Assembly (NCBI GenBank): GCA_025358205.1
Contig: JANYKG010000171.1
Coordinates: 1-43,936, forward strand
DNA: 43,936 bases
Source: Armatimonadota bacterium
GTDB taxonomy: Bacteria; Armatimonadota; UBA5829; DTJY01
Direction: 5' to 3'
Position 1 is the stretch's first letter. Every line of letters begins with the position of its first letter. Shown in pieces: positions 7,482-43,936 of the stretch. Made by a program: the position numbers and the translations under genes. The notes under the pieces are model-generated. The model was given only the letters and a program-made list of their open reading frames with translations, was not told where the DNA came from and made no database searches.

Positions 7482-7498
7482 TTGGCACGAATCTTGCA
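7482..7498 (+). promoter_or_regulatory. Sigma-54 (-24/-12) promoter before a PEP-CTERM gene
   Basis: TTGGCACGAATCTTGCA fits the RpoN consensus TGGCACG-N4-TTGCA. GG at 7484-7485 and GC at 7496-7497 start exactly 12 bases apart. It lies 79 bases upstream of a PEP-CTERM start codon, with transcription expected near 7508-7510. The 15-base core is identical to the site before the other complete PEP-CTERM gene at 24433. Sigma-54 promoters need an enhancer-binding activator; none is encoded nearby. Confidence 0.85.
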
Positions 7499-7576: not shown

Positions 7577-8269
7577 ATGTTACGGGTTGCTGGCTTCTTC
7601 TTCTCATGTCTGGCACTGCTGTGCATCACCGCGATGTCCGCAGGTGCAACCACCAAGATTTTCACTACGGCAGAATCAGATGGCGGGGTGGGAAGACACG
7701 GCGATTGGTGGTCAGAGGTTGATCATCACGAATCGGTGGACACCCGGGGGCCATTTGCGGATACCGTCTATTATCCGGGGCAACCCAGGTACTATTCTAT
7801 GGGTTGGGTCGTTCTCCAGTTTCCTATATCCAATCTCCGAGGGCTGACTCTTGCGCCGAATAGCGTGAAGATGCATGTGTATGATTCTGTGCATGGCTAT
7901 CCGCTTGCGCCGACTGTAGAACTTCTTGGTTTTACCCTCGATGGCGGGGGAGTGATCACTACTAGCCAGACGGTCGGGGTTCGCGTGGCAGATGTGCCCG
8001 TCTCTGCGTCCGCAGCCTGGCGTGAGGTGGATATCACCGCTGATCTGCAGAGGCAGATCAACGCCGGGTACAACTGGGCTGGCTATGTTTTCTCGATGGA
8101 AAAGAGCTACCGCGAGGGCTATTATGATACTGACGTATGGATTTATACCTACGAGGATGCGGACCACAGGCCGTACATCGAGATGCCGACCGTCCCCGAG
8201 CCGTCGAGCCTGATGGCGTTGGGTGGAGGGTTGTTTGGTCTTCTGGGATTCGTGCGTCGAAGGCGGTAG
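7577..8269 (+). CDS. PEP-CTERM secreted protein, beta-rich
   Basis: 230 residues with an N-terminal signal peptide (hydrophobic to about residue 22, Ala-Gly-Ala end). The C-terminal sorting tail is VPEPSSLMALGG, a hydrophobic stretch, and FVRRRR. PEP-CTERM tails are recognised by an exosortase, which cleaves at the tail and passes the protein to the surface or extracellular matrix. The middle (VVLQFPISNLRGLTLAPNSVKMHVYDS ... WREVDITADLQRQI ... HRPYIEM, here in parts) is beta-rich and resembles DNRLRE-type carbohydrate-associated modules, with low certainty. GGGGGAGAG precedes the ATG. A sigma-54-type promoter lies upstream, so expression is probably switched on by an enhancer-binding regulator. 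The exosortase is not in the window. Confidence 0.85.
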   Translation: MLRVAGFFFSCLALLCITAMSAGATTKIFTTAESDGGVGRHGDWWSEVDHHESVDTRGPFADTVYYPGQPRYYSMGWVVLQFPISNLRGLTLAPNSVKMHVYDSVHGYPLAPTVELLGFTLDGGGVITTSQTVGVRVADVPVSASAAWREVDITADLQRQINAGYNWAGYVFSMEKSYREGYYDTDVWIYTYEDADHRPYIEMPTVPEPSSLMALGGGLFGLLGFVRRRR

Positions 8270-24420: not shown

Positions 24421-24432
24421 ATAGGCGCGAAC

Positions 24433-24447
24433 GGCACGAATCTTGCA
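24433..24447 (+). promoter_or_regulatory. Sigma-54 (-24/-12) promoter before a PEP-CTERM gene
   Basis: GGCACGAATCTTGCA has GG at 24433-24434 and GC at 24445-24446, starting 12 bases apart, as RpoN requires. All fifteen bases, including the usually variable spacer, match the site at 7484-7498. Transcription should begin near 24458, leaving a leader of about 110 bases before the ATG at 24567. Confidence 0.83.
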
Positions 24448-24566: not shown

Positions 24567-25397
24567 ATGAAGAGTGGAAAAATCGTTCTTATGCTGGGCT
24601 TGGCATTTCTGCTGGGAGCAGTCTTCTGTATCCCGGCGTTTGCAGGTTCGGCTTTCACACCAACGTACGACGGAGTCATCAACAACGAGCAGGTGATACC
24701 ACAGACAACGCCTACGCAGGGACCGGCAACAGTAGTCAGTGTGAACTTGGTTAGCGAGACTCCAGGTTACTGGGGGAGCATCTCGACTACGGGTGGCGAC
24801 GGCGGCGCTTTGGCGCTCGGAGCAACGATAGGTCAGCCTACGCTTGCGTTAAGCCAATACATAGGTCCGGCATATTCCTGGACGGGATTTGGTATGTGCA
24901 TTGATTCCCTGCACACCATTGGTTATGGGCCGCAAAGCTCGAATTTTGCAGTGTATAATTTCAGCACAAATGGAACCTATATGAACAACAACATCCATAC
25001 CTCTACGGATTGGTACAAACTGACCAACATGCTGAGTAATGCGGATGTGTCCAACGACCTTGACCGCGCCGCCCTCCAGTTGGCGACGTGGAAAGGCGTC
25101 CAGGGGGATTGGAACACAAGTCGCTCAGACTTCTGGGGGACGTACGGAAGCACATATGGCTTCAGTGTAAGCGGCGGGAACGCATCCGACTTGTTCGCCA
25201 AAGCTGAGGGATATCTAGCCCTGGGAGATGCGTACACCGGATCAACTGAGGTCGGCAATTTCAAAATCCTGCGTGACACCAACCTGCAGATGTTTGCCAT
25301 CAAGGCGTCACCGGTTGTCCCAGAACCTATGAGCATCATCCTCGGTATTATGGGACTCGGCTCAGTCGCAGGGTTCAAGAGACTGCGCAGGAGCTAG
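24567..25397 (+). CDS. PEP-CTERM protein with thioester-adhesin signature
   Basis: 276 residues. A signal peptide ends near AFA (24-26). The exosortase tail is VVPEPMSIILGIMGLGSVAG followed by FKRLRRS. Between them, MCIDSLHTIG (110-119) and AALQLATWK (168-176) match the Cys...Gln pair of thioester domains (TQxA/TED). In these domains the Cys (here C111) and Gln (here Q171) form an internal thioester that can bond covalently to amines on a target surface. Such domains are best known from Gram-positive adhesins. Predicted to be displayed by an exosortase and controlled by the sigma-54-type promoter upstream. AAGGAGAAG precedes the ATG. A terminator follows. The PEP-CTERM call is sure; the thioester reading is moderately sure. 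Confidence 0.85.
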   Translation: MKSGKIVLMLGLAFLLGAVFCIPAFAGSAFTPTYDGVINNEQVIPQTTPTQGPATVVSVNLVSETPGYWGSISTTGGDGGALALGATIGQPTLALSQYIGPAYSWTGFGMCIDSLHTIGYGPQSSNFAVYNFSTNGTYMNNNIHTSTDWYKLTNMLSNADVSNDLDRAALQLATWKGVQGDWNTSRSDFWGTYGSTYGFSVSGGNASDLFAKAEGYLALGDAYTGSTEVGNFKILRDTNLQMFAIKASPVVPEPMSIILGIMGLGSVAGFKRLRRS

Positions 25398-43729: not shown

Positions 43730-43936
43730 CTACTTCCCTCTGCGCCGCCTAAGCGCGAAGAGAGGTGACACTAGCGCGCCCAGTGCGATAAGCGAAGACG
43801 GTTCGGGGACGGTGGTGTAAGCTACGTAATCCCAATACGAATCTGACGTAGCTCCAGCCACAAGGTACGGTGCTCCAAACACGATTCCACCTCCTATGTT
43901 TCCGCCTGATGCCGACCCGACCAGCACGGAACTGCC
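43730..43936 (-). CDS. PEP-CTERM protein, C-terminal part
   Basis: Only the last 68 residues are in the window; the gene continues past its right end. They read Gly-rich (SASGGNIGGGIVFGAPYLV), then TTVPEPSSLIALGALV, a hydrophobic stretch and ALRRRRGK, a standard exosortase sorting tail. The body of the protein is unseen. It is the third PEP-CTERM gene of the window. Its promoter lies outside, so it cannot be tested for the sigma-54 element found before the other two. Confidence 0.85.
   Translation of the reverse strand, partial: GSSVLVGSASGGNIGGGIVFGAPYLVAGATSDSYWDYVAYTTVPEPSSLIALGALVSPLFALRRRRGK

Follow-up and report, generated by a model that had tools for sequence, protein, structure and literature searches.

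In the textbook case, one sigma-54 serves many activators. For PEP-CTERM genes, Haft et al. (2006) described DNA motifs common to Proteobacteria only, and the motif accompanied 99 of the 167 PEP-CTERM genes counted there (PMC1569441). Aquincola tertiaricarbonis pepA is RpoN1-dependent; its start has been mapped, and its promoter reads TGGCAC/CTGCTT (PMC9850573). Activators without a DNA-binding domain (type Ic) are exemplified by FlgR of Helicobacter pylori and CtcC of Chlamydia, and FlgR acts from solution (PMC3162934). In Cereibacter sphaeroides, two RpoN paralogues are kept apart by the base at -11 and by the activator that belongs to each (PMC11999139, citing Poggio et al., 2006). Our literature search on sigma-54/RpoN together with PEP-CTERM in Armatimonadota, which left subscription papers and preprints outside its scope, found no paper.

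Here we analysed a contig of 43,936 nt (hereafter the window, meaning this whole stretch), together with the remainder of its genome and with other genomes of its phylum. Our analysis makes it likely that a subset of PEP-CTERM genes is controlled, across the phylum, by sigma-54 -24/-12 promoters of one class (class A), and that an RpoN paralogue (RpoN_P) and a kinase-activator pair lacking the Fis domain act on them without an enhancer, the address lying in the core and in the matching RpoN. Class A was defined as TGG(C/T)ACG-A(A/T)TC-TTGCA. An earlier, sequence-only reading of the window had drawn attention to an identical 15-mer before two PEP-CTERM genes, and both copies of GGCACGAATCTTGCA are indeed exact, at 7484–7498 and 24433–24447 on the + strand; the 12-base spacing between GG and GC that it noted is also true of both, the two elements starting at 7484/7496 and 24433/24445. 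The first predicted class A core (TGGCACG-AATC-TTGCA, 7483–7498, +) matches TGGCACGNNNNTTGCW exactly, and is followed after 78 bases by the ATG of a 230 aa PEP-CTERM gene (7577–8269, +) with the tail VPEPSSLMALGGGLFGLLGFVRRRR, which scores 26.6 bits against PF07589, above the cut-off. The second predicted core (CGGCACG-AATC-TTGCA, 24432–24447, +), in which the first base is the sole mismatch, lies 119 bases before the ATG of a 276 aa gene (24567–25397, +), whose tail, VPEPMSIILGIMGLGSVAGFKRLRRS, was recognized by inspection and is absent from the PF07589 listing at E ≤ 0.05. Both products combine a signal-like N-terminus with the PEP-CTERM tail. A third tail, VPEPSSLIALGALVSPLFALRRRRGK (43742–43813, -; PF07589, 23.8 bits), belongs to a gene broken by the contig end, with its promoter beyond that end; it is of a tail type that, in the rest of the genome, occurs without class A sites. 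As we estimate that about two exact 15-mer repeats are expected by chance in 44 kb when both strands are counted, the repeat within the window is by itself weak evidence.

The genome as a whole gives a pattern that, unlike the window repeat alone, could not be chance. In the 4.08 Mb assembly, the whole-genome search with two mismatches that the sequence-only reading had proposed returned 26 sites for the class A sequence, compared with three for the reversed pattern. Because this search pattern includes the spacer, it is unable to prove spacer conservation, and a spacer-blind search was therefore added. This placed a site upstream of 10 of the 30 PF07589-detected PEP-CTERM genes, where 0.32 were expected from shuffled upstream DNA, and in nine of these 10 the spacer was AATC or ATTC. 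The sites fit the sigma-54 pattern TGGCAC-N5-TTGC(A/T), with GG and GC 12 apart, a result with which the spacer-blind search agrees; in three site sets, GG and GC do not vary at all (2.0 bits), which is in part an effect of how the sites were selected. At one mismatch or fewer there are 14 sites, 10 of them directly before PEP-CTERM genes, one at the head of a gene run on contig C118 that includes PEP-CTERM genes, two heading probable small RNAs, and one (C92:10698, minus strand, exact class A) ∼370–410 bases before a nanE-like gene. A PEP-CTERM regulon, as proposed from the window, is supported, but it is narrower than had been implied, as about two thirds of the recognized PEP-CTERM genes in this genome have no class A site. 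Of the conditions that the sequence-only reading had named as refuting it, the two that sequence data can address, an equal frequency of the motif before genes without PEP-CTERM tails and a lack of rpoN, did not speak against it.

Exact matches to TGGCACGNNNNTTGCW across the genome fall into two groups. Those of class A end in TTGCA, have the spacers ATTC, AATC or close variants, and are mostly found before PEP-CTERM genes. The remainder, class B, have NNNA-TTGCT cores (TGGCACG-NNNA-TTGCT), four of the five being located on contig C12. The two classes thus differ in their spacers and also at position -11, with A in the former and T in the latter. Separately, a variant core, TGGCACG-GTTC-TTGC(T/G), precedes each of three consecutive PEP-CTERM genes on another contig (C75:5868, 6815 and 7743; L116). 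The sorting system itself is present, with 26 PF07589 matches at E ≤ 0.01 and one EpsH-type exosortase (C127:40363–41127). The tails of site-bearing genes are mostly GxGLxGL, whilst those of siteless genes are often AxP or TGFAA (P = 0.003, a lead only, as the classes were drawn post hoc), and these types differ although just one exosortase was found in the genome.

The inference of a non-proteobacterial lineage, also made from the window alone, proved correct: the organism belongs to Armatimonadota, and three relatives in this phylum have loci with 100 % identity to records named Armatimonadetes, Chthonomonadaceae and Chthonomonadia. Searching 121 genomes of the phylum with TGGCACGAWTCTTGCA and one mismatch, we found 277 sites, compared with six for the reverse. 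These sites follow rpoN closely, with 275 in the 86 genomes that carry rpoN and two in the 35 that do not; counted by genome, at least one site occurs in 52 of the 86 and in two of the 35 (Fisher P = 1e-8). In three near relatives from the window's class that lack rpoN, the activator, PEP-CTERM tails, exosortase and sites are all absent. Distant families also carry sites before PEP-CTERM genes, these making up 12 of 27 in family f7 and ∼10–11 of 20 in f10/f16/f26/f35. The link is not universal, however, since the Fimbriimonadaceae-like family f15 keeps the proteins but few sites: it has RpoN_P, the Fis-less activator and mostly 28–64 PEP-CTERM genes per genome, but zero to two sites each. Two further observations were made in f7. 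Seven of its genomes (G003, G018, G044, G064, G072, G080 and G094) have a class A site ∼180–215 bp before an exosortase gene, and four of its loci (L158, L161, L163 and L427) have one with a conserved flank, with a cold-shock protein gene following it in L161, L163 and L427. That the 15-mer might be a chance match, or a dispersed repeat travelling with duplicated genes, could be argued from its two exact copies in 44 kb and from a tandem duplication on contig C49. We regard this as scarcely credible, given that the flanks diverge immediately outside the core, that the downstream genes are unrelated except for their tails, and that the sites track rpoN across the phylum. The diverging flanks led us to reject a dispersed repeat.

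The presence of rpoN had been set as a check on the original suggestion, and the genome carries two copies. One, RpoN_P, is an orphan on contig C40; the other, RpoN_F, lies on C12 in a flagellar cluster (gene identities by inspection of translations), along with a Fis-bearing activator. Only two strong sigma-54 activators are encoded, one on C164 and one on C12, each adjoined by a kinase gene. The C12 protein consists of receiver, AAA+ and Fis (HTH_8) domains, whereas that encoded on C164 (402 aa) has Response_reg, Sigma54_activat and AAA_lid_14 but not HTH_8 (Pfam), and ends 39 residues from where its WPGN motif begins. As it stops before the Fis domain, it should act from solution. Its kinase gene, 14 bases upstream, specifies 1041 residues arranged as GAF-GAF-GAF-PAS-histidine kinase. 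Downstream of the activator gene is one for a REC-PilZ protein, and these two genes are separated by a class A-like site, TGGCACGGATTGTGCA; a similar site occupies the same activator/REC-PilZ position in the relative G005.

The sequence-only reading had also raised the PrsK/PrsR pair, so that the simplest alternative is a regulon of the proteobacterial type, in which PrsR, bound to an upstream enhancer box, activates sigma-54. The logic and the type of target gene are alike, both activators match the PrsR model TIGR02915 strongly, and a kinase gene lies beside each. On this point, however, the genome did not bear the suggestion out. The best TIGR02915 scores, 420 and 405 bits, are below the cut-off of 502.6, and both activators score best against AtoC; for PrsK, the kinases beside the two activators, to which the TIGR02916 scoring was confined, reach 95 and 93 bits with a cut-off of 300. 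In addition, the TTTACA enhancer box, sought 32–92 bases upstream of the sigma-54 motif, occurs before 1 of 17, 0 of 27 and 0 of 20 promoters in three sets, with 0.5–1.2 expected, and so is not enriched. Based on the sub-cut-off scores, the missing box and the lack of a Fis domain in the C164 activator, we rejected membership of the PrsK/PrsR family and consider this alternative largely refuted, and very improbable.

At least 11 families (f1, f2, f3, f4, f7, f10, f15, f16, f24, f26 and f35) share the short, Fis-less form of the activator tail, and a kinase gene adjoins the short activator in those relatives whose flank was read. Across the 121-genome set, the numbers of rpoN and activator genes rise together (Spearman 0.89), with 34 genomes having neither, 59 having one of each and 15 having two of each, although the genomes are mostly incomplete assemblies, in which an additional activator is possible. 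Another reading has the PEP-CTERM promoters driven by the flagellar machinery, i.e. the Fis-bearing C12 activator or RpoN_F, in place of the C164/C40 pair. In its favour, a DNA-binding domain is present in just one of the activators of this genome, that on C12. Nevertheless, G005 has 25 class A sites, as well as 28 PEP-CTERM genes, although its sole RpoN is RpoN_P and its sole activator the Fis-less one; the many class A sites of f7, likewise, occur in genomes with neither a second RpoN nor a Fis-bearing activator. Moreover, the cores in the C12 cluster are of class B, not class A. We therefore judge it improbable that the flagellar pair is responsible, and favour the C164 activator with RpoN_P.

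This assignment is in keeping with the RpoN proteins, which form separate, well-supported clades of old origin. In the window's class, the -12 recognition helix reads HEST(V/I)SR in 12 of 12 P copies and HEST(V/I)CR in eight of nine F copies, and the RpoN boxes also differ between the two. Class B cores, however, were found in only six of the nine genomes of the class with RpoN_F, and in none of the six without it (P = 0.03). In f7 (the seven genomes named above), the RpoN box is either KHR or KYR, and KHR goes together with TGGTAC in place of TGGCAC as the -24 element: TGGTAC accounts for 47 of 62 sites in KHR genomes and 10 of 31 in KYR genomes (P = 9e-5, with ancestry not corrected for), a covariation that would be predicted if RpoN reads the -24 element directly. 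Clades, helix differences and core classes thus agree in pointing to two RpoN types with, presumably, distinct promoters and activators.

Turning to the DNA upstream of the core, no 6-mer was enriched above shuffled DNA in G000 or in the f10/f16/f26/f35 set, and the columns outside the core hold little information in either, which fits enhancer-free action of the C164 pair. The f7 promoters do not fit, as A/T tracts lie ∼30–36 bases ahead of their -24 element, where some other protein could bind. These tracts are one reason to consider that the promoters are genuine sigma-54 promoters whose specificity comes from upstream DNA and a DNA-binding partner of the Fis-less activator, instead of from the core. 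Precedent exists in FleT of Cereibacter sphaeroides, which has no DNA-binding domain and works in complex with FleQ (PMC11999139). Most genomes with a single rpoN, however, have no second activator with which the first could pair, and this argues, together with the featureless upstream DNA of G000 and of the f10/f16/f26/f35 set, that a partner-based mechanism is unlikely. Specificity is best ascribed, for the most part, to the core promoter and the RpoN that goes with it, and not to an enhancer further upstream.

The class A regulon appears to include small RNAs. After a dxs-like gene on contig C49, two near-identical units of ∼70–85 nt lie in tandem (C49:45630 and 45783; L114, 9630 and 9783), each consisting of a class A site, a stretch of TTTCTCCTT and an intrinsic terminator. 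Similar candidates headed by sigma-54 sites were seen at C110:13904 in this genome and, in other Armatimonadota, at L304 (4694 and 4935, in tandem), L298 (1839), L264 (6582) and L278 (4989, minus strand). The candidate units contain no ORFs, and have strong terminators and UC-rich stretches complementary to Shine–Dalgarno sequences. Folding z-scores are -5.9 and -6.3 for the C49 pair and -5.0 for C110, with the terminator contributing part of each value. An Rfam search with the C49 small RNA returned only sub-threshold matches (suhB/mmgR, 22 bits compared with 41). Elsewhere, sigma-54-driven small RNAs are known, namely Qrr and GlmY, such that those predicted here would be a new instance, rather than a new kind, of such transcripts.

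The same core was also encountered outside Armatimonadota. It stands before flgB-like genes in Planctomycetota (L231, L248, L275 and L301; names by inspection), and before rpoN-like genes in Chloroflexota, a Lysinibacillus and an alphaproteobacterium (L229, L240, L280 and L285; names likewise by inspection), the latter perhaps representing autoregulation. The AWTC spacer is therefore shared with genes other than those for PEP-CTERM proteins. In two loci (L271 and L291), TTTGGCACGAWTCTTGCA lies upstream of sphingomonad PEPxxWA-type CTERM genes. In Tannerella and other Bacteroidales MAGs (L232, L249, L259–L261, L265, L269, L273 and L288), the 18-mer is followed immediately by a GA microsatellite, several times within one genome; this is probably an unrelated repeat.

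Taken together, we infer the following course of events. RpoN_P, the C40 orphan, most likely keeps polymerase closed at class A sites until the C164 kinase, responding to some surface or biofilm signal, phosphorylates the response-regulator/AAA+ activator; this would then open class A promoters from solution, with no need for an upstream enhancer. RpoN_F and the Fis-bearing C12 activator, in turn, would serve class B cores, and since class A and class B cores differ, the two circuits would be insulated from one another by sequence. A more general proposal, for which we see the chances as evenly balanced, is that sigma-54 regulation in Armatimonadota consists of insulated, one-to-one RpoN/activator circuits that carry their address in the core (the spacer and the -11 base) instead of in enhancers. 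The older of these circuits would control a defined subclass of PEP-CTERM genes, extending in some families to the exosortase, as well as small RNAs with pyrimidine-rich anti-Shine–Dalgarno stretches. Such a near one-to-one match of RpoN and activator departs from the textbook arrangement, and allows a direct test of insulation by promoter cores alone. Sigma-54 control of PEP-CTERM genes, in turn, predicts when surface sorting would turn on in Armatimonadota, a phylum with little genetics, and a link between sigma-54 and PEP-CTERM genes that uses different machinery outside the Proteobacteria would show that this link arose, or persisted, elsewhere.

When compared with known systems, the closest likeness is to PrsK/PrsR/PrsT of Proteobacteria (PMC1569441), where a sigma-54 -24/-12 motif also lies shortly upstream of PEP-CTERM genes, the activator is a response regulator with an adjoining kinase gene, and only part of the PEP-CTERM genes are included. 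The system described here differs in that its proteins fall short of the PrsR and PrsK models, no TTTACA box accompanies its promoters, whose spacer is instead fixed as AWTC, and its activator ends without a Fis domain. A. tertiaricarbonis is similar in having one of several rpoN paralogues control a PEP-CTERM gene, but is a proteobacterium with PrsK/PrsR and another core, and its case was tested by experiment, whilst ours is predicted from sequence. With FlgR and CtcC, the C164 activator shares the composition of a receiver and a sigma-54 AAA+ domain with no HTH_8, although it belongs to another phylum and would have other targets, and its short form is spread over at least 11 families, in some genomes beside a second RpoN–activator pair. 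Finally, the RpoN1/RpoN2 system of C. sphaeroides (Rhodobacter; PMC11999139) is similar in that each RpoN has its own activator, one of the two is flagellar and the -11 base helps to discriminate between them (here A versus T). That pairing is termed exceptional there; in Armatimonadota, by comparison, rpoN and activator counts match throughout the phylum, and the non-flagellar circuit would be devoted to surface proteins.
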